Shown here piece after piece: positions 3,841 to 21,899 of a stretch of DNA of 21,899 bases; position 1 is the stretch's first letter; every line of letters starts with the position of its first letter. The notes under the pieces were generated by a model. That model saw only the letters and a list, made by a program, of their open reading frames with translations, was not told where the DNA came from and did no database searches. This stretch comes from a virus, in IMG/VR virus record IMGVR_UViG_3300010413_000195, positions 1-21,899 of that record, one strand, 5' to 3'. A program made the translations under genes and the position numbers.

Positions 3841-3870
3841 ATGAACGAGGATGAACCATGGCCACTCTAA
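3841..3870 (+). CDS. Nine-codon mini-ORF overlapping the portal start
   Basis: ATG 3841 follows AAGGAG at 3829-3834 with good spacing and reads MNEDEPWPL then TAA. It overlaps the first codons of the portal gene (ATG 3858) in another frame, and its ribosome binding site is stronger than the portal's own CGAGGA. It may be a leader peptide that hands ribosomes to the portal by termination-reinitiation. It is too short for any homology argument. Confidence 0.3.
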   Translation: MNEDEPWPL

Positions 3871-7022: not shown

Positions 7023-9650
7023 ATGAGCTTTAAGTCAGACATGCATAAGAAACTGAGTAATCACAATATATTTAAGACCATACCTATCTGCAAGTACTCA
7101 GGAGGGCGCGATGAGCATGCCGGGATTATATGCAGCTCTGTACCACAGTGGGTGCGTTCTGCTTACGACCCGATGTGCGGTACCGGTTCTATAGTGTTAG
7201 AGCTTGCACGGTCCGGTATTAAAATAGTGGCCGCTGATATAAACCCGTGTGCAGTGTTCGTAGCGCAATCTCGCTCCGGTATAACGCATGTGGATGACGC
7301 GTCTGTAGACGCTTTAATCAATGCGGAGCCTAAGCATGGATATCTTTCTAAAAGTACCATTACTAACCCAACATCTTTCTACACACGTAATTATATAGAT
7401 GGCCTTGTCTCCAAGGCCTGGGATATGCACAAGTCGGAAGCACCTGGTCACGAAATTGCCATGGGAGCCATATCTGCCATGCTCATTACCTGCTGCGGAA
7501 ATCTCGGCCAGTTCCGTTCTAATATGGAGCCGTATAAGGTATCGGATCTGAAGATACTGTTACGCCGGTGCATTGACTGGATACAGCACGATAGACACAT
7601 CAACCTTATGGCAATGACAGAATCTACCAATGAATATCACTTACCGGTCATTTCCATTTCAGATGCAACTCGTATCAAGAACATCCCGCGCTCAGACATG
7701 ATCTTCTACGACCCGCCGGTAAGCAAGGTAATGAGTAAATACAACATCATAAACTCTGTTCTGTTTCAGAAGGACTATCGGCTGGAGTGTAAGGTGCCTG
7801 AAATTAACAAGTACAAAGATATATGCAAGTTATTGACCTATACTACAGATACTCCTGTTGACAAGAAATACGTCAATAAGCGAGATATAGGGTGCATCAT
7901 TTCCACTGCCTGTGACAAGCCGCTGAAGTTATACGAGAAACTGTCACATGCTAATATTGATACATACGACCCAAGGTTAGCCTCTACAGAGGCTGAGATA
8001 CAATCAGTAAACGATGACTTCAAGCTCTGTCAGGCATGGTGGGCTACGATACGTTCCGGCGGTGTACCTCCCTGCCCCGAAGTGACCGAGGAACGTTGCA
8101 TACAGCTTGGCACTGACATTATGAAAATCATCGGCTCACACGGGCGCAAGCTCAACCTGCATGAAGACGGGTTCAGCGACTTTCATCAGGCAATCTATCA
8201 CCGGCTTGGAGAACGGCGCGACCTGATTACGCGGGCATCCATATTGTGCGATGATATCCAAGGGTCCCAGGTAAGGTTGCCAAAGAATCTAGACGTTTCA
8301 AGATATCTAGACAAAACAGTTTATCTACACGATAGTAAAGGATATTGTCATGGAATAGGCCGCTTAAGTACGCGTGAATTAGTAACTGAATTCACACGGT
8401 TTAATACACCAAGGGAGCTGGACGGAACGCTTGATGGCCAGATAATCAGGCAGGCAAAGTTCAAGGGTAATATAGATTTTGACGAAGTATATAAACATGT
8501 AGACATACTTGAGCTGAAGGAGCACGATATAGTAAAATTGCATGATAATCTGCATAATTACTACAATGGCTCTCCGCCAAAAGGGTGGACTATAGACGAC
8601 GTTACCAACATCCATGAAAATCTAACCGTTAGAATGCAGGAGATAAATATTATGCATGAGAGTATCGACGCGCTTGACAGCGCTTCACCAGGTAAAAAAT
8701 CAGTGACCATCAAACAGGTAGCGGATTTTATTGATCATTTGCCGGACAAGATAGAAATCAAAGGCATACGGGCAATCAGTGGCCATTTTGCCGAGCAATA
8801 TGCGGCAGCCCGTCTAGACGCTATAATGGGAAATAACACTCTAGACGTGATTGATCAGTCTATCGGCAGTCTAAATCCGAGCTTAACAGACCTGGCGGCC
8901 CCATGCTCAACCAATCACACAGTCGGTGAACCGGTAGGGCGGTATATTCCGATATATGACGCTATCTTCATTAAGAGGCCAGTTCTAGACGCGCAAGATC
9001 CGGTATATTTTATAGATTTTTCAGAGTCTAGATACGTTAAGCCGTCAAAGCCGCGCATATGTGAGATGACCGAGGACCAGCTGGTAGAGAGCTACGGGCA
9101 GAAGCCGTTGATAATCCAGCCATGGCCTGAAGGTAAGCAGGTGCTGTGCTACAAACATGAGTTTGGCAGCGACCAGTTATGGATGGCCATGGATGAGGAC
9201 GGGTTGGGGTATACGCTGCAGGAGCAGCTTAAGGATGAACTGCTTTCACAGGAGCCATCAACGCTGGTAGTGGATGGAATATTGTGCGAAGACACGTATA
9301 TAATTAACACAGTATTAAGGAAGAACTCCATAGAGCTTATTAACAATGTTACTACCAGCTACCAGCTTTCATTTCTGGACATGCTGCGTGAGACCAATCA
9401 TGTTAAGAAAAGTAAATATGTGAGAACTGACAGCGCTGAAGCGCTTCAATGTGCGTTCACACAGTTACGTGAGGATGGCCATAAACAGGTTATCATCAAG
9501 CATGCCAACAGCAGGTACATACCCAATGCAGAAAACACCGGCTGGCTGCTGTTCTCGCTGGACAGCGATGTACTTAGTTTAAAACGGTGTCTAAATACAT
9601 TTAACAGTATAGAAGACTTGAATAACTTTATAAGAGGAGATATGAGATGA
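7023..9650 (+). CDS. DNA methyltransferase fused to a degenerate ATP-dependent ligase-like domain
   Basis: 875 residues. The N-terminal third is a class I amino-methyltransferase: motif I DPMCGTGS (49-56), acidic ADINPCAVFVAQ (71-82), a helical insert around 115-200, and motif IV SDMIFYDPPV (224-233). The order matches N6-adenine/N4-cytosine enzymes with an INP.A signature. The last motif IV residue is Val, not the usual aromatic, so activity is doubtful. The middle (about 500-551) carries a phage-type LH..LH...HE helical segment. Residues 690-845 resemble the adenylation domain of ATP-dependent DNA ligases: WPEGKQ (701-706) in place of KxDG, VVDGIL (749-754) like motif III, QVIIKH (822-827) then SRYIP and WLLF (841-844) like motifs IV-V. 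The adenylated Lys of motif I appears to be missing. I see the motifs by eye only; a structural or binding role is more likely than ligation. Confidence 0.65.
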   Translation: MSFKSDMHKKLSNHNIFKTIPICKYSGGRDEHAGIICSSVPQWVRSAYDPMCGTGSIVLELARSGIKIVAADINPCAVFVAQSRSGITHVDDASVDALINAEPKHGYLSKSTITNPTSFYTRNYIDGLVSKAWDMHKSEAPGHEIAMGAISAMLITCCGNLGQFRSNMEPYKVSDLKILLRRCIDWIQHDRHINLMAMTESTNEYHLPVISISDATRIKNIPRSDMIFYDPPVSKVMSKYNIINSVLFQKDYRLECKVPEINKYKDICKLLTYTTDTPVDKKYVNKRDIGCIISTACDKPLKLYEKLSHANIDTYDPRLASTEAEIQSVNDDFKLCQAWWATIRSGGVPPCPEVTEERCIQLGTDIMKIIGSHGRKLNLHEDGFSDFHQAIYHRLGERRDLITRASILCDDIQGSQVRLPKNLDVSRYLDKTVYLHDSKGYCHGIGRLSTRELVTEFTRFNTPRELDGTLDGQIIRQAKFKGNIDFDEVYKHVDILELKEHDIVKLHDNLHNYYNGSPPKGWTIDDVTNIHENLTVRMQEINIMHESIDALDSASPGKKSVTIKQVADFIDHLPDKIEIKGIRAISGHFAEQYAAARLDAIMGNNTLDVIDQSIGSLNPSLTDLAAPCSTNHTVGEPVGRYIPIYDAIFIKRPVLDAQDPVYFIDFSESRYVKPSKPRICEMTEDQLVESYGQKPLIIQPWPEGKQVLCYKHEFGSDQLWMAMDEDGLGYTLQEQLKDELLSQEPSTLVVDGILCEDTYIINTVLRKNSIELINNVTTSYQLSFLDMLRETNHVKKSKYVRTDSAEALQCAFTQLREDGHKQVIIKHANSRYIPNAENTGWLLFSLDSDVLSLKRCLNTFNSIEDLNNFIRGDMR

Positions 9651-10060
9651 GAAGATTAATAGTGCTATTGACGATTATGGCGTTAGCTGGCTGTACTGCC
9701 GGTATAAGATATACATACGACACGGCCACCGGCGCAGTGATCAGCAAGGAACCTAATATCAGTATATTGCAGCTCCAGTTAAAGGCAGGGGCAGCTACCG
9801 TCTATTCAGACACTACTGCAGGGTTCAGGATTAAATGCCCGATACCTGGTGGTAGTGCTATAGACGTTCTTGATGCTACGCTTGGATACTTGCGCAGTAC
9901 CCGCGGAGTCGTTCCTATCAAACCTGACGGCGAACTCCCGGTAGTAATTGTAGACACTTCAGTCAATCCGTTTAACAAAGATGGTGTGACGGACACGTTC
10001 CTGCTGGGGTCTGAAGCAGTAAGGGAACTGTACGCCGAAGCATCGGAAGAGGAGGAATAG
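9647..10060 (+). CDS. Predicted lipoprotein
   Basis: 137 residues. The N-terminus MRRLIVLLTIMALAGC is a type II signal peptide: two Arg, a hydrophobic core, and lipobox LAGC with Cys16 as the lipidated residue. The mature part is mixed beta with an acidic C-terminal tail (EASEEEE). It would be anchored in the outer or inner membrane facing the periplasm. The ATG overlaps the previous stop codon (ATGA) and AGGAG lies upstream. Possible roles are an outer-membrane spanin (though longer than typical Rz1) or a superinfection-exclusion lipoprotein; neither is shown. Confidence 0.65.
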   Translation: MRRLIVLLTIMALAGCTAGIRYTYDTATGAVISKEPNISILQLQLKAGAATVYSDTTAGFRIKCPIPGGSAIDVLDATLGYLRSTRGVVPIKPDGELPVVIVDTSVNPFNKDGVTDTFLLGSEAVRELYAEASEEEE

Positions 10061-10062
10061 CT

Positions 10063-10395
10063 ATGTTTGAATTCTTACAGAATATATGGAACTCATTATC
10101 AGGCAACACTATTGGCCTTGTAGCTATCGGAATCGCTGCTCTGGCTGCCTACAAGAAAGTTATGAACGCCATAACCCAGTCAAGGGAGGCAGTGCAGGCA
10201 GTGATAGAAATCTCCACCGTATGGCAGCGGGCTTATGCCGACAAGGAGATCGACAACGAAGAGATCAAGCAGATCGAGGAAGCCATGAAAGGCGCTATGA
10301 AAGAAGGAAAAGAAGCTGTAGAAGCAATAACCGAAGCCAAGGACGAGATCGAAGGGCTGCTTGAGAAAGCTAATATTAAGAGAGCAGTTAATTGA
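10063..10395 (+). CDS. Small membrane protein with amphipathic helical tail (holin-like?)
   Basis: 110 residues. One hydrophobic segment at about 15-30 (NTIGLVAIGIAALAAYKK) is followed by a long charged helix with many Glu/Lys and the repeated EA[IV] pattern (VEAITEAKDEIEGLLEKAN). GAGGAGG precedes ATG 10063 and the gene starts two bases after the lipoprotein stop. Size and topology could suit a holin or a membrane-tethered scaffold. Proximity to the lipoprotein gene suggests a shared membrane job, but no family is recognised. Confidence 0.55.
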   Translation: MFEFLQNIWNSLSGNTIGLVAIGIAALAAYKKVMNAITQSREAVQAVIEISTVWQRAYADKEIDNEEIKQIEEAMKGAMKEGKEAVEAITEAKDEIEGLLEKANIKRAVN

Positions 10396-10422
10396 AATGT
10401 AGGACCTTAAAGGAGAATAATC

Positions 10423-12321
10423 ATGCCTTACCGTTCAAATAGGGAATTACCGCCATGGGTGCGTCGTATGCCAGTTGGTGCACAGAATATTTACCGTTCT
10501 GCGTTTAATGCAGCGTTCAACAAGTACAAGGACGATGGAACAGCTGCCCGCGTAGCCATTACTGCTGTTAAGAATAAATATGCCAAGACTAACGGTCAGT
10601 GGACCATGAAGGCCGGGGAAAATGTTGTCGTTGAGCCGCTGTATAAAGGCACCAGTATTATTATAGAATGTAACGGTAAGGATGAACAGAAGACAACCAT
10701 ACATGCTGCAGACTTCCCCCACGCTAAGACAGCCGAGATAATCGCGTCTGTGTGCAAGATACAATGGCCGGACGCGGCCTTTCGGCTGCATGGAACAGAA
10801 GTAAATGGAACAGTATATATCCACGACATAGAGTTCTCAGAGCCGATGATGTGGATAGACCGCCAGAGAGAACTGAGCAAGCTATTCCCTGAGAAATCGA
10901 CCGGATGTCTGACCAGGGTCCAGCCATACATAGTCTCCAATGAAAACAAGCTCATATCCAACATGTATGAACAGCTCTCAAAGGACGGAGTCTCAGGCAT
11001 TACCATTAAGAACACTATGCAGCTACACGTTGAGCCGGTAGCTCTCTACGACAACACGCACACATTTGATCTTAAAGTCATAGAGCGCAAAGACATCCAC
11101 GGTATGCATGTCTATAGATTCGATGTTAACGGCTTTAATGTGTGGTCTAATCCGTGCGCAATACTGGCACAGCCGGGCGCTATAGTGCAGGCTACCTGCG
11201 CAAAGATTGTCAAGAACGTTGATAAGCTTGACCTGTACTCAATAGACATCCTTGGGCCTGGTAAGTCATCCGAGCAGAGCACTTTCAACAACTCCACTGG
11301 CTATGATAATTATGAAATTAATTTCATTACCAACACGGTACGTTCACTTGACGACCCAGACCAGCATCATGCCATAAGAAATGATATTACCATGAATGTG
11401 GATATAAAGGAAGGCACCTACGAAGCTGTATTGCTGTCATGGACCGATGTGCCTGATCATAAATCAGCTAACAAGCATGTGTGCGGTATCATGGTTGATA
11501 ACGAAAGGTTACTATGCATAGACGGTTCTATTACTACTATAAATAATAACATCATAGACAAAAAAGTCATAGACACTGTCACCGCATCTAACGGAAAGAT
11601 CATCATACCGGCTAAAACCTTCAATCAGTTCATTGCTGGTAATCTTGACTTCTCCAACCGCCAGTCAGCTGCGCTTAAAAAGATAAAGCACTCAAAGCCG
11701 TCAGTCATGATGGTAAAAAACAAGCACAACCAGTACCAGTGGTCCATGTACTGGCATTGCTATGACGATAAGAAAGACCATATAGATTTCATATTCGAGG
11801 GCAATACCGGAGTCTATGGTTTTAAGATATATAACGACATTATGTCTACAATGAGCTCAAAGTGCGTACAGCATGATATGAACGATGGCCTTGAGTTTAC
11901 TAAAAACGAACTACGTATGGACAGTAATCTGGAGCTTGACAATATATTACTCAATGCTGATGCATATAACCTTGCTACTGATATTAATTTATACTTACTG
12001 CAGGCTGATGATACAATCAAGCCGAATGGACTGTCTATGCCTGAAAGTACATTCAAATTAATAGAGCATGGAACATTGCAGCATGGCTTCAAGCGTGCTG
12101 ACTTGACAGAGTACTGGTTAAGTTGTAAAAATGATTGCATAGCAGGTAGATGGCTTATAAAACTTCTAGACAAACATGTGTCTTTAGAAGGAGAGACAGT
12201 CTACCAGATGTACCGTCCGGAAAAGATGCAGGAATGGTACATCAAGACCCACGATATAAATAATGAAGAGTTGCCCGCCATATGGCAGGCAGATGGAATA
12301 GTTAAGTTAATCAATATGTAA
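10423..12321 (+). CDS. ChaB-domain protein with degenerate ligase-like and OB-like domains
   Basis: 632 residues. Residues 1-63 are a clear ChaB domain: MPYRSNRELPPWVRRMP, then AQNIYRSAFNAAFNKY, AARVAITAVKNKYAK and GQW. Residues about 66-200 again resemble an ATP-dependent ligase adenylation domain: EPLYKGTSIII (71-81) where ligases have KxDGxR, TEVNGTVYIHD (125-135) like motif III, and GVSGITIKN (189-197) like motif IV. The nucleophilic Lys is replaced by Leu, so it should not self-adenylate. A beta-rich stretch at about 228-275 could be the OB fold that follows in ligases. The remaining 350 residues are unrecognised; IAGRWLIKLLD (573-583) near the end is reminiscent of LigD phosphoesterase ends, weakly. 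AAGGAG precedes ATG 10423. It lies two genes after another ligase-like protein, so the pair probably shares a task. Confidence 0.6.
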   Translation: MPYRSNRELPPWVRRMPVGAQNIYRSAFNAAFNKYKDDGTAARVAITAVKNKYAKTNGQWTMKAGENVVVEPLYKGTSIIIECNGKDEQKTTIHAADFPHAKTAEIIASVCKIQWPDAAFRLHGTEVNGTVYIHDIEFSEPMMWIDRQRELSKLFPEKSTGCLTRVQPYIVSNENKLISNMYEQLSKDGVSGITIKNTMQLHVEPVALYDNTHTFDLKVIERKDIHGMHVYRFDVNGFNVWSNPCAILAQPGAIVQATCAKIVKNVDKLDLYSIDILGPGKSSEQSTFNNSTGYDNYEINFITNTVRSLDDPDQHHAIRNDITMNVDIKEGTYEAVLLSWTDVPDHKSANKHVCGIMVDNERLLCIDGSITTINNNIIDKKVIDTVTASNGKIIIPAKTFNQFIAGNLDFSNRQSAALKKIKHSKPSVMMVKNKHNQYQWSMYWHCYDDKKDHIDFIFEGNTGVYGFKIYNDIMSTMSSKCVQHDMNDGLEFTKNELRMDSNLELDNILLNADAYNLATDINLYLLQADDTIKPNGLSMPESTFKLIEHGTLQHGFKRADLTEYWLSCKNDCIAGRWLIKLLDKHVSLEGETVYQMYRPEKMQEWYIKTHDINNEELPAIWQADGIVKLINM

Positions 12322-12336
12322 ATAAACGGAGCAACC

Positions 12337-12519
12337 ATGGAAGAAAGAGAGCAACGACAGGAAGATTTTGCAGCACAGGGCGAAGTGTATGATTTTCTAG
12401 CAGAACTGTCAAAAAGAAAATACTCCGGTATTATAGAAATCCAGTTTAAGCGCGGTGAAGCAAGACGCTGGGCCAAACTAAGTAGATTTCGTCGCATGGG
12501 AGGTGACAACGGCAAATGA
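12337..12519 (+). CDS. Small basic protein, translationally coupled to the protease gene
   Basis: 60 residues. The centre, KYSGIIEIQFKRGEARRWAKL, is a short beta hairpin with the 'G.I.I.FK.G....' pattern seen in DUF2292-like small phage proteins. ATG 12337 has CGGAG upstream, and its TGA overlaps the next ATG (ATGA). It also contains GGAGGTGA near its 3' end, which serves the protease start. The overlap and the pattern make it likely real; function unknown. Confidence 0.55.
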   Translation: MEEREQRQEDFAAQGEVYDFLAELSKRKYSGIIEIQFKRGEARRWAKLSRFRRMGGDNGK

Positions 12520-13775
12520 ATGACATTGAATATGTATCATTAAGCGACATTGTGCTTGATGAAAACAGAAGAGCTATGATAGAGCTCCTTCCTGTAGGAG
12601 AATGGATTCACCCATCTGCTCCCAAGGGCAAGTTTACCGTAACTGAAACATTACTTGATGAATTTATTGCTAACTTTAAGAATAGGGTTGTTGGTAAAGA
12701 ACTGCCCATAGACTTCCGGCATGAAGGAGAAAGCGGGAATGGAGTCCCTTTCGTAGGCGGCTGGATCATAGACATGATCAAGAAAGTAGACGAAATGGGA
12801 AGAAAAGCTATCTATGCTATACTGCATGTAACTGATGGGGAAGCTGCAAAACGTATTAAGGAGAAATCTCTCAAATACATATCACCGTCTATCAAGCTGA
12901 AGTTCCAGAACCCGGAAGACGGTAAACTCTATAATATTATAAGGGCTGCAAGCCTGACAAATTGGCCGTACATAAAAAATATGTCACCGGTCTCACCAAT
13001 TAATTTTGAAGAAATCAAGGAGGTGAATGATATGAGCGATAATAAAGACCGTTTTAAAGAGCTGTCAGAGAAAGAGACTCTCAGCTTCGAAGAGTTTGAA
13101 GAGTACAGAACATTGCTCAATGACGACCCTGAGTTGGATGAACAGGAGGTCAACTTCAAGCTGAAAGAGGCTTACGACAAGCTCTCCAAGAAGGAAGAGA
13201 AAAAAGAAGAAAAGAAAATCGAAAACACTGACGATAAGGCGGACAAGCCTGAATCGCCTGATAATTCCAAGGATGACAAGGGAGGTGACGTTAACATGTC
13301 AGAGGAATTGAAACCCAAAGTAGAAGAACTCCAGAAGCAGATCGAAATGGCGGACAAAAAGCTGGAAGAGTCTAGTGCCAAGCATTTTGCCCTGCAGGAG
13401 AAGATCCGCTCACAGGAGATAGACGCAAAAGTTCAGCCTATGATTAGTTCCGGCAGAATTACACCGGCAATGGGCAAAATCGCCAAGACCATCCTTATGG
13501 CAGGCGATGCGGCTAAAGCAAAAGTAACTATCGAGCTTTCAGACGGTAAGACCGAAGAAGCGGAAACCAACGTGGCAGAATTATTTCTGCAGTTTGTAGA
13601 GTCTATGCCGAAGGAATGGAAGATCGAGATGGAACAGAAGGGCAAGAAAGGCGTAGTTATCGAAGACAAGCTGGAACTCTCTGAGGAAGACATTAAGAAC
13701 ATGCCTCCAGAAGAGTACGAGAAACACAGAAAGGCCATCTTCGCAAAGATGAACAACGAGATACGGCCTGAGTAG
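12516..13775 (+). CDS. Mu protein I-like head maturation protease with C-terminal scaffold
   Basis: 419 residues. Residues 20-155 follow the Mu gpI protease pattern: EWIHPSAPKGKFTVT, LPIDFRHEG with H69, GGWI (81-84), HVTDGEA, KYISPSIKL with S123 in a YISP motif, and AASLTNWPYIKN. H69 and S123 are the likely catalytic residues by analogy with assemblin-fold prohead proteases. Residues 173-260 are highly charged and low-complexity (runs of Lys/Glu around 225-235). Residues 261-419 form a helical scaffold-like tail. Two in-frame internal starts with strong ribosome binding sites (13032 and 13296) would give scaffold proteins without the protease, as Mu makes Z from within I. Expressed just before its substrate, the major capsid protein. 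Confidence 0.85.
   Translation: MNDIEYVSLSDIVLDENRRAMIELLPVGEWIHPSAPKGKFTVTETLLDEFIANFKNRVVGKELPIDFRHEGESGNGVPFVGGWIIDMIKKVDEMGRKAIYAILHVTDGEAAKRIKEKSLKYISPSIKLKFQNPEDGKLYNIIRAASLTNWPYIKNMSPVSPINFEEIKEVNDMSDNKDRFKELSEKETLSFEEFEEYRTLLNDDPELDEQEVNFKLKEAYDKLSKKEEKKEEKKIENTDDKADKPESPDNSKDDKGGDVNMSEELKPKVEELQKQIEMADKKLEESSAKHFALQEKIRSQEIDAKVQPMISSGRITPAMGKIAKTILMAGDAAKAKVTIELSDGKTEEAETNVAELFLQFVESMPKEWKIEMEQKGKKGVVIEDKLELSEEDIKNMPPEEYEKHRKAIFAKMNNEIRPE
13032..13775 (+). CDS. Nested in-frame product: long scaffold (Met173 start)
   Basis: ATG 13032 is preceded by AAGGAGGTGA at 13017-13026 with a five-base gap, a full match to the 16S rRNA 3' end and stronger than many gene starts in this window. 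The reading frame is that of the protease, giving a 247-residue protein (MSDNKDRFKELSEK...) lacking the protease domain. Independent scaffold starts inside the protease gene are known in Mu (gene Z) and lambda (Nu3). Confidence 0.6.
   Translation: MSDNKDRFKELSEKETLSFEEFEEYRTLLNDDPELDEQEVNFKLKEAYDKLSKKEEKKEEKKIENTDDKADKPESPDNSKDDKGGDVNMSEELKPKVEELQKQIEMADKKLEESSAKHFALQEKIRSQEIDAKVQPMISSGRITPAMGKIAKTILMAGDAAKAKVTIELSDGKTEEAETNVAELFLQFVESMPKEWKIEMEQKGKKGVVIEDKLELSEEDIKNMPPEEYEKHRKAIFAKMNNEIRPE
13296..13775 (+). CDS. Nested in-frame product: short scaffold (Met261 start)
   Basis: GGAGGTGA at 13281-13288 lies seven bases before ATG 13296, again in the protease frame. It yields 159 residues beginning MSEELKPKVEELQKQ, a coiled-coil-like helix typical of scaffold cores. 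Two strong internal sites suggest three products from one gene, though either site could be partly an effect of Gly-Gly-Asp or Glu-Val codons. Confidence 0.55.
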   Translation: MSEELKPKVEELQKQIEMADKKLEESSAKHFALQEKIRSQEIDAKVQPMISSGRITPAMGKIAKTILMAGDAAKAKVTIELSDGKTEEAETNVAELFLQFVESMPKEWKIEMEQKGKKGVVIEDKLELSEEDIKNMPPEEYEKHRKAIFAKMNNEIRPE

Positions 13776-13782
13776 AGTTACG

Positions 13783-13794
13783 GCGCTGTAGCGC
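13783..13794. promoter_or_regulatory. TGTA-loop hairpin, copy D, before the capsid gene
   Basis: GCGC-TGTA-GCGC, preceded by TACG and followed by ATTATAT, seven bases after the protease stop and 38 before the capsid ATG. It aligns base for base with copies B and C, though the outermost pair is G/A and therefore open. It is the only sizeable untranslated gap in the protease-capsid region, the junction where expression must rise most. Confidence 0.5.
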
Positions 13795-13832
13795 ATTATA
13801 TGTCTATCCCTTTATAAGGAGGTGATATTTAC

Positions 13833-14801
13833 ATGGCATGGTCAGGCAATTCATTTGACCCTATTTTTGCTGAGATATGGGCGAAAGAAGTAGAGCGGGC
13901 AGCAGAACCGTTGAAAACTATGCGGCGCTTTTGTGTCGTAAAGGAAGATCTGGTCTCTAACCCCGGCGATACTATCTGGATCTCAAAATTTGACCAGCTT
14001 ACCGGCAACGGCATTGCTGCCGGAACCGACATTGAGGGTAACGAACAGGATTATTCTGCCAAGGCTCTTGGACTCGTACCGGCTGAAGTTAAAAACGGTG
14101 TTAAAGTCCGTAAGTCAGAAATCCAGAAAACCCCTGTAGCCCTCAGAATGGAAGCAGCTACCGCCCTCGGTAACTGGTATGCTCGCAAAGAGGACTCAGA
14201 TATATGGACCGCAGCAGTGGACAACTCTATTGAGAACTCCGGCCTGTACAGCGGTTCTACCGATACTGTCACGACCAACGTGTACTACGGCGGTGATGCT
14301 ACAACCAGAGCTACCGTAGAAGCTACCGATACGATGACCAGTGCATTGCTTCGCAAAGCTGCTGCAAAGCTGGCTTCTAACAATGCTCCAAAGTTCATCA
14401 TTAACGGTATTGCATGTTACGTTGGTATTCTACATCCACGGCAGGTTTACGACTTGAAGGGTGACACTGATTATAAAAACGCCCAGAAAGATGCTGGTCT
14501 GAGAGGTAATGAGAACAGGCTGTTTACCGGCGCTATAGGAATGTACGACGGTATTCTTCTGTTTGAAAGCACCCAGACAAGTACAGCCAGTGGTTGGGGA
14601 TGTCCGGCATTGACGGTCTATCAGGGAGTAGTGTTCGGAGAACGCGCTCTCTGCATGGCAGTTGGTCTGCGCAATAACTGGATGGAGAAAGAGTTCGATT
14701 ACGGCAGGCTTGTCGGTATGGCAACTGAGTCCAGATATATGGCACATATCCTTAATTACAAACATATAGTAAGACTAGAAACCGCTGCTACCACGATTTA
14801 A
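13833..14801 (+). CDS. Major capsid protein, N4 gp56-like family
   Basis: 322 residues; forms the head shell (HK97 fold expected). The family signature is visible: ILHPRQVYDLKGDTDYKNAQ (199-218), LFTGAIGMYDGILLFES (230-246), and VVFGERALCMAVG (266-278). It also starts with the usual helix IFAEIWAKEVE and the KGDTI-like GDTIWI (45-50). The ribosome binding site AAGGAGGTGA (13816-13825), seven bases before ATG, is the strongest gene start in the window, as expected for the most abundant virion protein. A CCACG...CGTGG hairpin spans its stop codon. Pairing an N4-type capsid with a Mu-type portal and protease is a mosaic. Confidence 0.87.
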   Translation: MAWSGNSFDPIFAEIWAKEVERAAEPLKTMRRFCVVKEDLVSNPGDTIWISKFDQLTGNGIAAGTDIEGNEQDYSAKALGLVPAEVKNGVKVRKSEIQKTPVALRMEAATALGNWYARKEDSDIWTAAVDNSIENSGLYSGSTDTVTTNVYYGGDATTRATVEATDTMTSALLRKAAAKLASNNAPKFIINGIACYVGILHPRQVYDLKGDTDYKNAQKDAGLRGNENRLFTGAIGMYDGILLFESTQTSTASGWGCPALTVYQGVVFGERALCMAVGLRNNWMEKEFDYGRLVGMATESRYMAHILNYKHIVRLETAATTI

Positions 14802-14806
14802 CGTGG
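14791..14806. promoter_or_regulatory. Hairpin over the capsid stop codon
   Basis: CCACG-ATTTAA-CGTGG, with the TAA stop inside the loop. There is no T run after it. It could be an mRNA stabiliser or a mild attenuator lowering read-through from the highly expressed capsid gene into the glycosyltransferase cassette. Confidence 0.35.
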
Positions 14807-14831
14807 CTATCAGTTGGTGGAGATACAGTGA

Positions 14832-16052
14832 ATGAAGGCTATTTATTTAGGGCCTAAGAGAGAAAAGAAGGTTTGGCATAATTATGGAGACGATGCTGAT
14901 GGTTCTGTGTATGAATTTCATCGCGGTATACCAAGAGAAGTACCTCTATCACTTGCCAACTTTCTGAATTCAGCTCCTAATTTTCGTTTAGACGACGGGA
15001 CGGCTTTCATTAGTGACCCAATATTAAAAAAGGCTCACGATGATGGCCGTCCTATTACTATATTACTAATACGATATCTTGGCGGTATTGGTGATATATT
15101 AATGGTAACGCCGGCTATACGTGGTGTAAGGGAGAAATTCCCCAACGCTGAAATAACATTCGCTATTAATAAGCAGTATGCTGCCGGGTCTCTGTTCGAC
15201 ATAATAGAATTTAACCCGCATATAGACAAGATTGTCAATACGCATGGACTTACTATAGAACAGAAAAAGTCATATACTTCATGGACAGATCTTTCACATC
15301 CATGCGCCAGGTATGAGGCGCAGACAGCTCCAAATGTCGATCTTCACCGGTCGGAAATATACTGTGAAGAATGTGGAGTAACACCTTCCAGTATGAAGCC
15401 GGTATTGGTGCTACCAGAGCAGGACATGGAGTTTGCACATGACTTTTATAACCGGCATGGTCTTTATGGCAGTAAAGTAGTAGCCATACAGCCCTACGCC
15501 GCTGATCTTCGGCGCGTCTGGGGCCCTGACCGCATGCTGGCCGTAGCCGGACTGATGAGCGATGTCAAGTTTTTATGGATTGACTATTTAAACAAGCCGG
15601 TTAATCCTCCTGAGAATGTGATAGACTGTACCAGACTAAAAGTACGCCAGACAGCAGCGCTGGTAAAGAAATCAAATCTTGCAGTAGGATGTGATTCATT
15701 TTTACTGCAGATATCAGCGGCACTGGATGTGCCTTTAATCGCCATATTCGGTGCTACTGACCCGTACATGCGGTGCAAGTTCCACACAAACTGGACGCCG
15801 ATATGGCATAAGGATGAATGTTCAGATTGTCCATGCTGGTACGGCTATCCATGCCTGAATACCCACCTTAAAGATCTTGGCAACCTGGTAGTAATTGACC
15901 GCGACGGTCATGAGCTGACCAAACGTAAATGCCTTGAGACGGTAACCGTTCCTGAAGTTGCCGATACAATAAGAAAGATGCTAGACAAGCGGGAGGTAAG
16001 CAATGAGAAGACTGGAGATAGGATCGGGGAACAGTCCACAGCCGGAGCATGA
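14832..16052 (+). CDS. GT9-family glycosyltransferase (heptosyltransferase-like)
   Basis: 406 residues. After an atypical N-terminal 75 residues comes the GT9 Rossmann start ILLIRYLGGIGDILMVTPAIR (77-97), where heptosyltransferases read 'R.gglGD.l...P...'. The C-terminal donor-binding half has VAIQPYAADLRRVW and AVGCDSFLLQISAALDVPLIAIFGATDP (284-310), matching 'G.DSg..HlAaAlg.P.valFGpTdP', with Phe-Leu-Leu in place of Gly-Pro-x-His. A Cys cluster (C330, C333, C335, C341) suggests a structural metal site, as seen in some GT9 proteins. GT9 enzymes transfer ADP-heptose or related sugars in lipopolysaccharide core synthesis. Here the gene directly follows the capsid gene, with 30 bases between. 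Its end overlaps the next gene by 50 bases. The sugar and acceptor are unknown. Confidence 0.85.
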   Translation: MKAIYLGPKREKKVWHNYGDDADGSVYEFHRGIPREVPLSLANFLNSAPNFRLDDGTAFISDPILKKAHDDGRPITILLIRYLGGIGDILMVTPAIRGVREKFPNAEITFAINKQYAAGSLFDIIEFNPHIDKIVNTHGLTIEQKKSYTSWTDLSHPCARYEAQTAPNVDLHRSEIYCEECGVTPSSMKPVLVLPEQDMEFAHDFYNRHGLYGSKVVAIQPYAADLRRVWGPDRMLAVAGLMSDVKFLWIDYLNKPVNPPENVIDCTRLKVRQTAALVKKSNLAVGCDSFLLQISAALDVPLIAIFGATDPYMRCKFHTNWTPIWHKDECSDCPCWYGYPCLNTHLKDLGNLVVIDRDGHELTKRKCLETVTVPEVADTIRKMLDKREVSNEKTGDRIGEQSTAGA

Positions 16053-16527
16053 GCACCTAGAGATAAATCCAGACTGTCCACATGTAGAGTACAACTGTGA
16101 CTGCAGATCAATACCGGTAGATGACAATACCTTTGACGAGATATTATGCGTACATGTAATAGAGCACATGGAATGGCTGCAGGCACCGGTGGCATTGAAA
16201 GAGTGGTGCCGTGTACTCAAACCGGGAGGTAAGTTGCGGCTGTCCACTCCAAATTTTGACTACATTATTAAATCATACCTTGACGATACAGATACCAACT
16301 GGAAGAAAGAACTTAACACGCCCAACTGGACATTCCCTGAGCCATGCCATAAGAATAAATCGGCGTGGCTTAATTTTAAATTATTCTCAACCGACATACC
16401 ATTTAATCTGCATAAAGCATGCTTTGACCGTAAGTGGATGACAGAACTGCTTACCGAAGCTGGTTTTCATAATATAGAATTCAACCCTGAGCCTGCAAGC
16501 CTGAACCTGATAGCGTATAAGAAATGA
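16003..16527 (+). CDS. SAM-dependent class I methyltransferase (Methyltransf_11 type)
   Basis: 174 residues. Motif I is LEIGSGNSP (4-12), then EINPDC, the IPVDDNTFDEILCVHVIEHM segment (37-56) and LKPGGKLRLSTPNF (72-85). This layout is that of short methyltransferases in sugar and surface-polysaccharide clusters (cyclopropane/UbiE-like fold), which O-methylate sugars or act on small molecules. GGGAGGT lies five bases before ATG 16003, supporting this start in spite of the 50-base overlap with the GT9 gene. Its stop overlaps the next start (ATGA). Confidence 0.82.
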   Translation: MRRLEIGSGNSPQPEHEHLEINPDCPHVEYNCDCRSIPVDDNTFDEILCVHVIEHMEWLQAPVALKEWCRVLKPGGKLRLSTPNFDYIIKSYLDDTDTNWKKELNTPNWTFPEPCHKNKSAWLNFKLFSTDIPFNLHKACFDRKWMTELLTEAGFHNIEFNPEPASLNLIAYKK

Positions 16528-17222
16528 ACGCGGTTGTAACACTAACTACTATTCACTTTGCAGGACACGCCTATTCGCACCCATCATTCCTGTCATATGC
16601 AAACAGAATAGGTGCAGACTTTATAGTGATTAGAGAACGTAAGATGCAGCCGTGGGTAATCATGTTTGAAAAGTTCAGGGTAGGTGAGCTCTTTGATATG
16701 GGATATGATCGGGTATTATATATAGACTCTGACACCTTTATCAAACCTGACTGTGAGGACCTGTTCGAAGAAGTACCGGAAGACTGTATAGGTGCCGTAT
16801 ATGACTGCACTGAAAACATACCGGCCAATGAAGACAGGATACCACGTGTGCTTGACAGGTTAGGTCACATAGAATGGAAAAGTGGTTATTTAAATGCCGG
16901 TGTGTATGTTGCTTCAAAAATACACAGGGAATTATACAAAATACCAGGCAATGCTATCAACGAAGCATGGTGGGAACAGGACGTTTTTAACTATAATATA
17001 GTTAAGAATGGTTTTAAAATACATAAGTTACACCACAAGTACAATGCTATGCGGTTATATGGTTACCATACCCACAAAATATGTGACATGACAAACGCAA
17101 AAATAGCCCACTTTGCCGCACAGGGAGATGTAATTAAGAAACTACAGCATATGTATGAAAGGTACAAAGATGATATTGAGCGTTATAACGCGGGTTCATC
17201 CAAAAAGGCCATTGTTATTTGA
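16524..17222 (+). CDS. GT8-family glycosyltransferase
   Basis: 232 residues. The metal-binding DxD is in VLYIDSDTFIKPD (64-76). GYLNAGVYVAS (121-131) and WWEQDVFNYNI (149-159) are the next GT8 landmarks, and IAHFAAQGD (194-202) is in the place of the C-terminal His motif. This is a GT-A enzyme using a nucleotide-sugar donor and Mn2+, related to LPS galactosyl/glucosyltransferases and glycogenin-like proteins. ATG overlaps the methyltransferase stop by four bases. The 3' end overlaps the following gene by 53 bases, so the last 18 residues are encoded in shared DNA. Confidence 0.85.
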   Translation: MNAVVTLTTIHFAGHAYSHPSFLSYANRIGADFIVIRERKMQPWVIMFEKFRVGELFDMGYDRVLYIDSDTFIKPDCEDLFEEVPEDCIGAVYDCTENIPANEDRIPRVLDRLGHIEWKSGYLNAGVYVASKIHRELYKIPGNAINEAWWEQDVFNYNIVKNGFKIHKLHHKYNAMRLYGYHTHKICDMTNAKIAHFAAQGDVIKKLQHMYERYKDDIERYNAGSSKKAIVI

Positions 17223-17778
17223 TAAATGCGTTGCGTCTGTCAAGCGGCAGACGGTACCGGTAGAGCAGGTCTTCATACGTGACGATAATCCTGACGGCTG
17301 TGGAAGTGAAGCGGCCAAGAGAATGTTCATGAAGTTAAGGCCGGAAGAAGTCCATGGCGAGTATGTCATGATACTTGACGACGACGATGTGATGGTATAC
17401 GACGATCTTGCCAAGGATATATTCACCATATCATGCTCATGTGAGCCGGATATGTTTATATTCAGGGGAGAGCTTGTTGGCCTTGGCGTTGTGCCTGGCC
17501 CACACACGTGGAAGAAACCGCCGGTTATAGCACAGATTGGCTCATTCTGCTATGCGGTTAAAAAAAATTTATGGTTTAGAAATATTCATGTATACGCAGG
17601 TATGACCTTGCAGCAGGATGGTAATGTAAGTATATGTGCTTCAGTGGTAGGCGACTTCGAGTTCGCCAGTCAATGTTATAAAGACAGTAAGAATACATAC
17701 TGGCTGGACGTGATAGCATGTAAGACCCAGCATTCTGAAGACCAGCGCAAGAGGAGGGTACGTGGAATACTTAAATGA
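17170..17778 (+). CDS. GT2-like glycosyltransferase (GT-A fold)
   Basis: About 202 residues from ATG 17170, preferred over 17155 because GAAAGG lies seven bases before it and the protein then begins with the usual beta strand MILSVITRVHPKR. FDKCVASVKRQT (17-28) and VFIRDDNPDG follow the GT2 nucleotide-binding pattern, and YVMILDDDDVM (65-75) is the DxD-type metal site. The acceptor domain is short and lacks obvious membrane segments, so it is a soluble transferase. It overlaps the genes on both sides (53 and 17 bases). Confidence 0.78.
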   Translation: MILSVITRVHPKRPLLFDKCVASVKRQTVPVEQVFIRDDNPDGCGSEAAKRMFMKLRPEEVHGEYVMILDDDDVMVYDDLAKDIFTISCSCEPDMFIFRGELVGLGVVPGPHTWKKPPVIAQIGSFCYAVKKNLWFRNIHVYAGMTLQQDGNVSICASVVGDFEFASQCYKDSKNTYWLDVIACKTQHSEDQRKRRVRGILK

Positions 17779-18862
17779 TCCACGACCGGATCAGTATTTA
17801 TACTATAAACAGTTAGTGCAGCACTTAAAGTCTAGGGACAATATATATCCAAGACAGCTGGAGATACATTTACCTGCAGATCATAGGAGCTCGTGTAATT
17901 TAAACTGTCCCCACTGTGCAGGCCGATGGTTCGACAAGTCACTCGGTACATGGGAGGTGGATGCGTTATCGCTGCTGTTGCAACTTAAGGGTGCGGTTCC
18001 ATACCATATATACGGTGGGGCATACACAGAGCCGGTAATGAATCCATACCTGTTAACATTTATAGCCATGACAAAACGTTTCAACAATCACTTCGGAATA
18101 CATACAAATGGTACACAATTAGCTGGTTTGCAGAAGTTAAACGGATTCCTGTCAGAACTTAACCGGCTATCAACTGATGATACTGATTATTTATCTATCA
18201 GCATTGATGCAGGTAATCCGGTATCATGGTGCAGGACAAAGGGGACTAAACAGACCAGCCTGTTTTACGATATCATCAAAGGAATAGAACTGGCTGCCAG
18301 TATGTTCAACGACAACTCTCACGCATTGAGACTGTGTTATCTTATATCACCAGCCAGTGGAGATGATGAAAACTTTAAATCAATAGTAGAAATAGCACGT
18401 AAGTACCATGTTCATTCACTCAGGTTCTCAATACCTTTTGCTAATTATAATATAACATTTAATAATGTAAGAAAGTACAAGCGGAATATAGAACAGAAAT
18501 ATAATAGCGTCTATAGAGACATGTTAAGGCCATACCTGTCAAAGTCAAAGGATGAACGGCCATACATATTTTATACTGGTCCTGAGTTCACTGATATTGA
18601 CAGGTACACATTTGATAAGTGTTATTATTCTCTATACCAGATAACGCTTGGAGCAGATGGGCATATCTATCGCTGCTCTACTGTTGCAACTCCAACCGGA
18701 CAGCAGTGCCGGTTAGGGCGTATCACTGACGACAAAGACGAATTCGACAGGATAGTTGAATACAGCCAGCATACAGACTGGGACTGTTCTCAGTTATGCT
18801 TTAAACATAATTTACGATGCAATCGCATGGGACTGGAAATTAATACTGTACTGAATAGTTAA
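17762..18862 (+). CDS. Radical SAM protein with SPASM-like C-terminus
   Basis: 366 residues from a GTG start with GAGGAGG just upstream. The iron-sulfur motif CNLNCPHC (C45, C49, C52; CX3CX2C) binds the 4Fe-4S cluster that cleaves SAM. HIYGGAYTEPVMNP (82-95) replaces the usual GGEP. The C-terminus has Cys at 287, 305, 316, 342, 346 and 353, the layout of SPASM/twitch auxiliary-cluster domains (DGHIYRC is the typical strand). SPASM proteins modify peptides or oxidise sugars and small molecules. No precursor peptide is visible nearby. The substrate is unknown; the surrounding transferases suggest a sugar or a glycosylated protein. Confidence 0.82.
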   Translation: MEYLNDPRPDQYLYYKQLVQHLKSRDNIYPRQLEIHLPADHRSSCNLNCPHCAGRWFDKSLGTWEVDALSLLLQLKGAVPYHIYGGAYTEPVMNPYLLTFIAMTKRFNNHFGIHTNGTQLAGLQKLNGFLSELNRLSTDDTDYLSISIDAGNPVSWCRTKGTKQTSLFYDIIKGIELAASMFNDNSHALRLCYLISPASGDDENFKSIVEIARKYHVHSLRFSIPFANYNITFNNVRKYKRNIEQKYNSVYRDMLRPYLSKSKDERPYIFYTGPEFTDIDRYTFDKCYYSLYQITLGADGHIYRCSTVATPTGQQCRLGRITDDKDEFDRIVEYSQHTDWDCSQLCFKHNLRCNRMGLEINTVLNS

Positions 18863-19243
18863 ATGAAAAAACCAATACATACACTCACGACTGGTGAATT
18901 TTTTGATAGATTTACAATATTAATACGTAAAGATCATTTTGACCATAAAACATACGGTGCTCAATTAGACCAGTTTATACAACAGCTTGGTGACAATGGT
19001 AAGTTATTTTATTTATTATGTAAACTCATGATGGTCAATACAGATGTATGGAATCTTGAGTTTGATGTTAGACGTGGCCAAGAAGATGAGCTTGGACTTG
19101 CTGAAGTAGGAAGGCGAGCCATTAAGGTAAGAGAACATAACAATATTCGTATACAATGTATTAATGAAATATGTAGTTACTTCGGTGAATTCGCACATGA
19201 GAAAAAATACCAGCATGTAAGTGATATAGAAAATGAATCTTGA
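18863..19243 (+). CDS. DUF6165-like protein
   Basis: 126 residues. The sequence follows a family found next to glycosyltransferases and LPS genes: TTGEFFDRFTILIRK (9-23; usual form 'S.GEL.DK.sIL.iK'), NTDVWNLEFDVRRGQ (59-73; 'N..LW..Ed.iR'), AIKVREHNNIRIQCINEI (86-103; '.a..v...ND.R...K..IN') and EKKYQHV near the end. The family is helical with no known activity. It begins immediately after the preceding stop codon and overlaps the next gene by 11 bases. From here on the DNA is clearly AT-richer than upstream. Confidence 0.65.
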   Translation: MKKPIHTLTTGEFFDRFTILIRKDHFDHKTYGAQLDQFIQQLGDNGKLFYLLCKLMMVNTDVWNLEFDVRRGQEDELGLAEVGRRAIKVREHNNIRIQCINEICSYFGEFAHEKKYQHVSDIENES

Positions 19244-20216
19244 TTATATTCCGTATAGGATATTTTCATATTATACTGAAATAAAAGACTTGATTAAAGG
19301 TAAATCAATACGTCCACGCTTTGCTGACCTGCACACATCTAATAGATGCAATCATCGCTGCAATGGATGTGCGTATAAAGACATGCATGATGGTAATGTC
19401 ATGTCAAGAGATGATCATTTTACAATAGTCAATAATCTCATAGATTTTGGTATATCCAGCTTTGACTTTGCCGGTGGTGGTGAGCCATTAATGATCCCTT
19501 ACCTGCCTGAGCTCTTGCTTCATATTACCAATCGTAAATGTCATTTTGGTATTATTACCAATGGATCATTACTAACAGATGATCTGATTGATATTATTGC
19601 AGAATGTGGGACATATATACGCATATCCCTTGAAGCAAGCAATAGACTGGTATTCTCTGAATATAAGAATGTACCACCGGAACAATGGGACAATACTTTA
19701 AATAATATAACCAAGCTGGTTAGTAAAAATGGAAATGCAGATGTATCTATCAAATTCGCCGTTGGTAAATCGCTTAATGGTCCGATGCATTATGAGGATG
19801 GATTGAAACTGGCGGATGATCTTGGCGTTGACGGTGTACAATTTAAGCTATTAAGGCATGAACCGGAAGAGCTTTCCTATGAGGAAATAGAGCACGAATA
19901 TTCCATTGGGCCATTGCATCTTGGAGGTTATTCATGCGACAGGTATGAAGTTCCAGATCCATGTTGGTTGAATCCATTACATACCATGGTTGATCATACC
20001 GGTAATGCGTATATATGTTGTTACTATTATTACAGGTCTGAACAACATATGATCGGAAATCTGCTACAACATCCTATAGAGTATTACTGGATGAAGGATG
20101 ATCACATGAGTAAGATTAAGAATATCAGTCCATATGAATGCTCAAAGGTTGACTGCAAGTTCTTTCGACACCATGATACCGTAGATAAATACATACATAG
20201 ACTGGATTTTTTATAA
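19233..20216 (+). CDS. Second radical SAM protein with SPASM-like C-terminus
   Basis: 327 residues. CNHRCNGC (C39, C43, C46) is the CX3CX2C cluster motif, FAGGGEPLMIP (79-89) the classical GGEP motif, and FGIITNGSLL (105-114) the following strand. The C-terminal C235, C244, C262, C263, C303 and C308 with DHTGNAYICC suggest SPASM-type auxiliary clusters. It is distinct from the first radical SAM protein in the GGEP motif, spacing and base composition, so it is probably not a recent duplicate. The start is weak (no clear ribosome binding site) and likely coupled to the upstream gene. Confidence 0.84.
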   Translation: MNLDYIPYRIFSYYTEIKDLIKGKSIRPRFADLHTSNRCNHRCNGCAYKDMHDGNVMSRDDHFTIVNNLIDFGISSFDFAGGGEPLMIPYLPELLLHITNRKCHFGIITNGSLLTDDLIDIIAECGTYIRISLEASNRLVFSEYKNVPPEQWDNTLNNITKLVSKNGNADVSIKFAVGKSLNGPMHYEDGLKLADDLGVDGVQFKLLRHEPEELSYEEIEHEYSIGPLHLGGYSCDRYEVPDPCWLNPLHTMVDHTGNAYICCYYYYRSEQHMIGNLLQHPIEYYWMKDDHMSKIKNISPYECSKVDCKFFRHHDTVDKYIHRLDFL

Positions 20217-21148
20217 TGAAAAAAATTATTGTTACAACGACGATTAACCCGCCTACTGAAGCAGTTGAGAAATTTGATGCCATTCCTGATTGGCACTTAA
20301 TAGTAATTGGTGATGTTAAAACTCCGCATAATTACCGCTTAAAGCGTGGAGAGTACTGGGACATAGATAAACAGTTTGATAAATATCCAGATCTTTCCAA
20401 TGCAATAGGGCTCAATACTATCAGTAGACGTAATATCGGTTTTGTAGAAGCATACAATCAGGGAGCAGATATTATTGCCGTAATAGATGACGACAATATT
20501 CCATATGACTATTGGGGAAAGAACCTTTCAATAGGCCGTAAGATTGATGCTAGATGCTATTACTGCAAGGACGTTGTGTTTGATCCACTATCAGTTACCC
20601 ACCACTATCATCTATGGCACAGGGGATTTCCAATACAATTAGTAAATGGACGATCATACAGCATGTCAAAAACAATTACTATTAGTCCGCTTGTACAAGC
20701 CGATCTTTGGGATGGAGACCCAGATATTGATGCAGTATGTCGCATGATTTACAAGCCTGAGATTAAATTCTCTATAAAAGAGTTTTACACATCAAATAAA
20801 ATATCACCCTTTAATTCGCAGAATACATTTGTACATAAGTCAGTTATTCCATACTACTGTATGCTTACTGGTATTGGGCGAATGGACGATATATGGGCAA
20901 GTTATATCTTACAAACAATCATGTCATGTCCGGTTGTATATGGACCTGCAAGTGTATATCAGAAACGTAATAAACATGATCTAACCAAAGACATGATTAA
21001 TGAATTTCTTGGATATGAGAAGTCATTGTCATTTATCAATGATTTAAAATATTTGTCGTTACCGGCGTTATTCAACAAGTACATGCCGTACAGCGCTGCT
21101 AAGGTATGGGATGCATATAGAAAAGAATTCACAAAGGAGAGTGTATGA
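20216..21148 (+). CDS. STELLO-like glycosyltransferase
   Basis: 310 residues. MKKIIVTTTINPPTEAVEKF, HLIVIGDVKTP and SRRNIGFVEAYNQGADIIAV, followed by IDDDNIPYD (DDD at 91-93), match the STELLO/DUF288 family, whose GT-A domain resembles the reversibly glycosylated polypeptides (GT75 mutases). In plants STELLO proteins affect cellulose synthase assembly; bacterial members sit in polysaccharide clusters and are uncharacterised. The DDD is the presumed metal/nucleotide-sugar site. Start and previous stop share one base (TAATG). Confidence 0.75.
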   Translation: MKKIIVTTTINPPTEAVEKFDAIPDWHLIVIGDVKTPHNYRLKRGEYWDIDKQFDKYPDLSNAIGLNTISRRNIGFVEAYNQGADIIAVIDDDNIPYDYWGKNLSIGRKIDARCYYCKDVVFDPLSVTHHYHLWHRGFPIQLVNGRSYSMSKTITISPLVQADLWDGDPDIDAVCRMIYKPEIKFSIKEFYTSNKISPFNSQNTFVHKSVIPYYCMLTGIGRMDDIWASYILQTIMSCPVVYGPASVYQKRNKHDLTKDMINEFLGYEKSLSFINDLKYLSLPALFNKYMPYSAAKVWDAYRKEFTKESV

Positions 21149-21879
21149 TATCTTTACTCGTTCCAACAAGGGGAAGACCATCCAATATGCAGAGAGTATG
21201 GGACACTGCAAGAGAAACAGCTAATAGTAATAATATAGAAATAATATTCTATATAGATCATGACGATAAGGCATCAATAGATAAATACTTACATATGACT
21301 GAACTGGATAGCCGCGTAAAAGCGGTAGTGGCTGATCGTGTGTTTTTTGATATGAGTAAAGATATGTATTACGAAACATACAAGCTATCTGCCAAGGACA
21401 TTATATGGCTTGGTAATGATGATTTTATTTTCAAGACATATAATTGGTATGGGATTATTGCGGAGATCTTTAACAAGGTAAAAGACAAGATACTGCTTGT
21501 TTACGGTTGGGACGGCTTTCAAAACGCACGTATGGCAACTAATCCGTTTATACATAGGAATTATATTGATGTACTTGGCTATATATGTCCGCCTGAGTTT
21601 CCGTTTATAAATACCGATATATGGCTTGGTGAGGTAGTAAATGATATAAATAGAATGGTATATATTAACGATCTTAAGATTGAACACATACATCCTATAG
21701 CAGGTAAAGCACAGTATGATAAGATATATACTGATAAGGAAGAATTCAGGTCAAAGGTGCAGCATAATTTTTATAAATTAGGTGAGCTACGCAATACTGA
21801 AAAACAAAAGCTGTTGGACTTTATTAAACGTAATAATGGTGAACATATTAAATTTCCTAAACAAAATTTAGGGCATTAA
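21145..21879 (+). CDS. GT2-like glycosyltransferase
   Basis: 244 residues. MISLLVPTRGRPSNMQRVWD is a typical GT-A first strand and nucleotide-binding helix. IIFYIDHDD (33-41) and DIIWLGNDDFIF (85-96) provide acidic metal-binding positions, with NDD in the place of DxD. It lacks membrane segments. AAGGAG lies upstream and ATG overlaps the previous stop (ATGA). Acceptor unknown. Confidence 0.72.
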   Translation: MISLLVPTRGRPSNMQRVWDTARETANSNNIEIIFYIDHDDKASIDKYLHMTELDSRVKAVVADRVFFDMSKDMYYETYKLSAKDIIWLGNDDFIFKTYNWYGIIAEIFNKVKDKILLVYGWDGFQNARMATNPFIHRNYIDVLGYICPPEFPFINTDIWLGEVVNDINRMVYINDLKIEHIHPIAGKAQYDKIYTDKEEFRSKVQHNFYKLGELRNTEKQKLLDFIKRNNGEHIKFPKQNLGH

Positions 21880-21880
21880 G

Positions 21881-21899
21881 ATGAATAATATCGCATTAA
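21881..21899 (+). CDS. Start of a further gene, cut by the window end
   Basis: ATG 21881, one base after the previous stop, opens a frame reading MNNIAL up to the window edge. Continuation of the same tight spacing suggests that the operon goes on. Confidence 0.4.

Follow-up and report, generated by a model that had tools for sequence, protein, structure and literature searches.

A cassette of sugar genes behind a viral capsid gene that may decorate the virion

Why would a phage carry nine genes devoted largely to sugar chemistry directly behind the gene of its major capsid protein? The question is raised by the IMG/VR virus record IMGVR_UViG_3300010413_000195, classed as linear, whose entire 21,899 bases constitute the window analysed here. 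In this window, the stop of the capsid gene (14801) is followed after 30 bases by the start of the first of nine plus-strand open reading frames, P1 to P9 (14832 to 21879). Neighbouring frames overlap everywhere except at P5/P6, the long overlaps P1/P2 and P3/P4 hinging on the choice of start codon, and a terminator scan found no terminator-like site between capsid and P1. This layout agrees with an initial annotation made from the letters alone, which had proposed that the genes build a complex glycan. A further ATG lies at 21881, just before the record ends, and because of this the cassette, which reaches the cut end, may be longer than what we see. Our answer, to which we give about an even chance of being right, is that a late cassette in a virion-building operon decorates the virion with a furanose-containing glycan tailored by radical S-adenosylmethionine (SAM) enzymes, the acceptor being what we infer.

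What chemistry could such a cassette perform? Most family assignments for the window proteins rest on Pfam and PHROG profile matches, and for P8 (20216..21148, + strand) the only Pfam match is a weak one to STELLO (0.0018). We rejected the STELLO transferase assignment in favour of a GT75-type NDP-pyranose/furanose mutase (MtdL/UAM-like) on the basis of fold, profile and invariant catalytic residues. An AlphaFold2 model of P8 derived from 45 homologues (predicted local distance difference test, pLDDT, 95.5) displays a GT-A fold with an MtdL-like core and C-terminal helices. Among PDB entries, the model comes closest to six structures of MtdL (TM 0.82-0.85, E down to 7e-22) and then to rice UAM2, and the P8 family profile matches MtdL over almost the full length (E 1e-33). 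MtdL is a GT75 enzyme that turns NDP-pyranose into NDP-furanose, and no product was seen with its R159K, D109N, D195N, R257K and D260N variants (PMC9937993). In the alignment, these positions correspond to R136, D91, D170, R222 and D225 of P8, R136 being the counterpart of the arginine nucleophile R159; D91-D93, R136, D170, R222 and D225 are each invariant in 45/45 phage proteins. P8 thus shares with the GT75 mutases, MtdL and plant UAM, the fold, the DDD motif and the equivalents of Arg159/Asp195/Arg257/Asp260, whereas it is shorter (310 vs ~375 amino acids) and viral, phages not being mentioned in PMC9937993. Since the MtdL fold, the profile match and the catalytic residues are present, P8 probably makes a furanosyl donor. 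In large phages, relatives of P8 adjoin genes resembling NAD-dependent epimerases/GDP-mannose dehydratases as well as GT10/GT11 fucosyltransferases, which fits a GDP-sugar substrate without proving one. It follows that the cassette holds four candidate transferases (GT9, GT8, GT2-like and phrog_14945) and one nucleotide-sugar mutase, not five transferases as initially counted. Besides these, it has two radical SAM proteins, a methyltransferase and a DUF6165-like protein.

The signature gene of the cassette is P7 (19233..20216, +), which encodes a radical SAM/SPASM protein (PF04055 7e-18; Pfam SPASM 6e-4, at 20.4 bits slightly below the cut-off of 21.5). It carries a CxxxCxxC motif, a GGGEP-type motif and SPASM cysteines. 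In an alignment of 20 sequences, residues C39, C43, C46, C244, C262 and C303 never vary, and C263 and C308 are kept in 19. The closest structure to the P7 model (pLDDT 88) is DesII, then SuiB and BlsE. DesII is a radical SAM enzyme acting on a TDP-sugar, and the resemblance hints at sugar chemistry, although peptide-modifying enzymes score nearly as high against the model. P5 (17762..18862, +) is a more divergent radical SAM protein (PF04055 2.4e-6, 28.3 bits vs a cut-off of 29.5) with SAM-cluster cysteines in a CxxxCxxC motif at residues 45, 49 and 52 and more cysteines towards the C-terminus; no match to it was found in phage isolates.

Around these proteins stand the four candidate transferases, a methyltransferase and a small protein. 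P1 (14832..16052, +; PF01075 4e-9) is a GT9-type transferase that begins with an additional domain of ~75 amino acids, so that the match to the GT9 structure 3tov (1e-8) starts at about residue 78. Residues 24-53 resemble the C-terminus of a small protein whose gene immediately follows that of the capsid in L004, a Bacteroides-type phage with one of the nearest relatives of the window capsid (42% across 31 residues; E 5e-5 when the two are compared singly). This match ranks top among 2032 proteins and its score is reached by none of 5000 shuffles, whereas a blind search gives only E 0.3; with P1 as single query against viral contigs, no relatives were found. It is plausible, judging from these alignments, that in P1 a transferase has been joined to the domain of a capsid neighbour. 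P2 (16003..16527, +) is a SAM-dependent methyltransferase (PF08241, Methyltransf_11, 1.6e-10). P3 (16524..17222, +) is a GT8-type glycosyltransferase (PF01501 4e-9) with homologues inside the cassettes of two other records, L010 (3e-25) and L013 (2e-23). P4 (17155..17778, +; start codon uncertain) is GT2-like, matching phrog_14775 at 3e-5 and PF00535 (GT2) at 6e-4, under the cut-off. P9 (21145..21879, +) belongs to the phage glycosyltransferase family phrog_14945 (1e-36) and has a weak homologue right behind P8 in L008 (2e-9); in Streptomyces phages, its relatives are found not beside the capsid gene but beside a nucleotidyltransferase and genes of DNA metabolism or lysis.

P6 (18863..19243, +) is a DUF6165/DUF4254-like protein that reaches DUF4254 at 0.0065 only, aligns with a DUF6165 member, and is related to proteins of L109 (48% identity, E 6e-36) and L110 (42%, E 4e-27), beyond which a scan with P6 found nothing. 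In both records P6 immediately precedes P7, as it does in the window. Because of this arrangement and of a distinct G+C content at third codon positions (GC3; 0.22-0.33 in P6-P9, 0.40-0.49 in P1-P5 and 0.46-0.57 in the remaining phage genes), it is suggested that P6-P9 came in as one block. None of P1-P9 contains a likely membrane segment, the top hydropathy stretch being 1.89 (P1) and all others at most 1.14.

Does the position behind the capsid gene mean anything? Scans of IMG/VR plus one scan of GTDB genomes returned around 24 further records with P7 relatives, most of them fragments, and more than 80 with P8 relatives. P7, mostly accompanied by P8 and other sugar genes, is part of, or adjoins, the virion modules of unrelated phages that together have at least five capsid families: PF13252 in the window, phrog_14242 in L008, PF05065 in L010, PF17236 in L012 and phrog_371 in L096. 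L010 offers an extensive example. There, an HK97-type capsid gene (PF05065) and three small genes precede a P3-like GT8, DUF4422, a sulfotransferase, P7, P8, a methyltransferase, GT9, a GT4-like gene and further genes, after which come a connector (PF05135), a head completion protein (PF05521) and a tape measure protein (PF10145), all three on the same strand as the cassette. Whether tail genes lie downstream was a check proposed by the initial annotation, and in L010 the sugar genes do sit between the capsid and these genes. In L008 and L093 the terminase is followed by a methyltransferase, P7, P8 and more sugar genes, and then by the portal. L110 has terminase and portal, then P6, P7, a methyltransferase and P8, then a head morphogenesis gene. 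L012 carries an SU10 capsid gene (PF17236), a glycosyltransferase with tetratricopeptide repeats (TPRs) and then P7, and L109 a tail-fibre-like gene, transferase-like genes and then P6-P7-P8. P7 lies immediately upstream of a tail tube gene in L011 and also in L095, where the tail tube is assigned by homology, and several genes downstream of the capsid gene in L096; in L097 the cassette is right upstream of the terminase, and in L111 there is a weak virion match upstream. In a tree, P7 of the window is one of the eight members of a supported clade (96/97); seven of the eight have virion neighbours, and the remaining one, L009, has base-modification genes. Analogous junctions in independent contigs also lessen the worry that the window is misassembled at about 14.8 kb.

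How would the products act together? In the proposed mechanism, P8 would supply the furanose form of a nucleotide sugar, which is probably a GDP- or UDP-sugar of the host. P7, possibly together with P5, would modify the sugar by radical chemistry; P1, P3, P4 and P9 would build a short glycan that P2 would methylate, and P6 would have a supporting role of some kind. The genes would be co-transcribed and expressed late, and the glycan would most likely be placed in the cytoplasm, during assembly, on the structural proteins of the phage itself, capsid or tail. The phage's glycosyltransferase genes do lie in the virion-building region. A virion acceptor, which has in our view about as good a chance of being correct as of being wrong, is favoured by this position, by the recurrence, by enzymes that look soluble, by the N-terminal domain of P1 and by the precedent of the mycobacteriophages. 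The recurrence of related cassettes inside head and tail modules of unrelated phages, which strengthens the earlier proposal of a complex glycan made from a virion-building operon, is good but not decisive support for a virion role, because virion genes take up much of small phage genomes. Several observations weigh on the other side. The glycan itself is predicted from the genes, none having been observed. Closeness to virion genes is only modest evidence where these occupy so much of the genome, and 7/8 would be unremarkable if they made up half of it. The N-terminal match of P1 is weak once the positional argument is removed. One P7-P8 pair, in L009, belongs to a DNA base-modification cluster, and P8 is commonest in the sugar clusters of large T4-like phages, which have been interpreted as host-surface genes. 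Finally, the capsid protein is no richer in serine/threonine than its relatives, and we rejected this sign of O-glycosylation.

Could the glycan be meant for the host instead? The cassette might remodel the host surface late in infection, blocking superinfection or the sticking of progeny to debris, with the structural operon providing timing only; we regard this as unlikely but deserving serious attention. Most relatives of P8 belong to extensive sugar clusters in large phages, together with fucosyltransferases and nucleotide-sugar enzymes, e.g. in cyanophage S-T4, a cultured Synechococcus phage. GT9 and GT8 are, moreover, typical families of lipopolysaccharide core synthesis. Host-surface remodelling is also the published interpretation of the pelagimyophage islands, where transferase and radical SAM genes likewise lie within the structural region (PMC7029224). 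Those host recognition clusters, however, belong to T4-like phages, measure 44.6 kb on average, lie between VrlC and gp14 and are mixed with tail fibres, whereas in the window the cassette follows immediately on the capsid gene, in a head module that is not T4-like (Mu-type portal, PF13252 capsid), with no T4-like head gene among the family matches of the window's proteins. Surface remodelling would not require recurrence within head modules of small phages and leaves the post-capsid-like domain of P1 unexplained. Among the family matches of the cassette there is, besides, neither a membrane protein nor a flippase, a polymerase or a carrier transferase; likewise, the Pfam/PHROG matches include no flippase, bactoprenol or polytopic glycosyltransferase family of the kind that defines Gtr-type seroconversion cassettes.

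DNA could be the acceptor as well, the transferases and radical SAM proteins decorating modified bases of the phage genome before packaging, a proposal that we hold to be improbable. It draws on L009, where P7-P8 lie behind a thymidylate-synthase-like gene, a 5-hydroxymethyldeoxyuridine (5-hmdU) DNA kinase helical-domain protein (PF18723) and a TAGT-like HMC glucosyltransferase, so that genes of known phage base hypermodification clusters (hmdU kinase, TAGT and TET types) are joined to this pair. The window itself holds a phrog_757 DNA methyltransferase and an 875-amino-acid protein resembling D12 methyltransferases, and P9 additionally matches the N-terminal part of phrog_2675, annotated as DNA methyltransferase. 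Nevertheless, L009 is only one of eight in the P7 clade, and PF18723 occurs in 1/25 P7 records, L009 being that one. PF00303 is found in L009 and otherwise only in the bacterial metagenome-assembled genome of L093, on another contig (1.5e-97), where it is likely a host gene. P4 was considered as a TAGT and rejected (E 2.5 against the TAGT of L009). A base-forming gene of the known types was not found in the window, which gave no PF00303 or PF18723 match and no PF20691 match above the cut-off, in a fragment whose replication genes are unseen. The search for PF12851 (TET) is uninformative because it gave no match in any genome, controls included. The nucleobase route, ranked as less likely at the outset, has gained one case of P7-P8 in a base-hypermodification cluster, but its gene families were not found in the window or in the other P7-bearing viral records. 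The likely hypermodification cluster of L009 (1228-6893) consists of the thymidylate-synthase-like gene, PF18723, the TAGT-like gene (phrog_842), the P7 and P8 relatives and a 316-amino-acid protein without family, and may, judging from its gene content, make a furanosyl or radical-SAM-modified base. The least probable account, in which the nine genes are no single pathway and form a mobile island of cargo genes, prone to insertion into virion modules, whose products have separate roles, is in line with the GC3 of P6-P9 (0.22-0.33) being unlike that of P1-P5 (0.40-0.49) and with cassette partners that vary among phages, but it fits poorly with P7 and P8 being kept as neighbours, with P6 immediately preceding P7 in L109 and L110, with the tight gene packing and with the single chemical theme.

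Is there a precedent for virion decoration, then? Capsid and tail tube of mycobacteriophages carry glycans (Freeman 2023, as cited in passages of PMC12619734 and PMC11256854). The system of Che8 and its relatives is similar to ours in relying on phage-encoded glycosyltransferases. It differs in that the relevant passages place the transferases of Maravista, a Che8 relative, near the 3′ end of the genome and describe no radical SAM, mutase or methyltransferase set. There, also, the acceptor is proven, whereas in the window it is a candidate.

That phages place sugar genes in structural regions and that virions can be glycosylated is already known, although glycosylated particles are proven in few phages only. 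Two points appear to be new, no description of either having been found in the open-licence literature: that a cassette built around P7-P8 occurs within the head modules of phages whose capsids are unrelated, and that the phage P8 family belongs with GT75. If such cassettes modify virions, many uncultured phages devote genes to a sugar chemistry of their own, with a furanose mutase and tailoring by radical SAM enzymes, and this could alter the recognition or the stability of their particles. Even with an acceptor on the host surface, the GT75 assignment provides a testable enzyme function for a viral family of at least 80 IMG/VR loci that was here only weakly STELLO-like. More tentatively, and with some doubt, we envisage a transferable virion-glycosylation module, composed of a DUF6165-like protein, a SPASM radical SAM protein, a GT75 mutase and a GT9 anchored on the capsid through what was once a post-capsid domain, that would be swapped among phages with unrelated capsids and would coat their particles with furanosyl sugars.

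Apart from small gaps, the whole window is coded on the plus strand. From the 5′ end, it encodes a small protein without family assignment, the terminase large subunit, the portal, the phrog_757 DNA methyltransferase, the 875-amino-acid methyltransferase-like protein, a ChaB-domain protein, a Mu I-like protease/scaffold, the capsid protein and P1-P9. The major capsid protein (13833..14801, +) is of the PF13252 type (1.2e-23; phrog_334 2e-32), shares 25-32% identity with its nearest isolates and, as single query against viral contigs, found no relatives. The module had been described as Mu-type, which holds for the portal (PF06074) and the protease (PF10123); because the capsid belongs to a family other than that of Mu, it is only partly Mu-like. 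Another distant relative of this capsid protein is that of L006 (MW202512.1), where TPR, FkbM methyltransferase and galT-like genes lie between the capsid and a head-stabilisation gene (9055-17392).

The terminase large subunit (1119-3320, +) has N-terminal helix-turn-helix (HTH) domains that are perhaps a built-in small terminase. The Mu-type portal (3858-5618, +) also begins with an HTH (HTH_28, 26.1 bits, cut-off 25), which is unusual for a portal. The 875-amino-acid protein (7023-9650) is weakly D12 adenine methyltransferase-like at its N-terminus and weakly DNA ligase-like at its C-terminus, and the ChaB domain (1.8e-14) is N-terminal in a head-module protein of 632 amino acids (10423-12321). 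Lastly, positions 1-690 are non-coding and contain four TTATAAGGT-type direct repeats, at 454, 516, 550 and 593, together with a perfect 15-bp inverted repeat (118/213); from these repeats, the segment may be a regulatory or packaging region.

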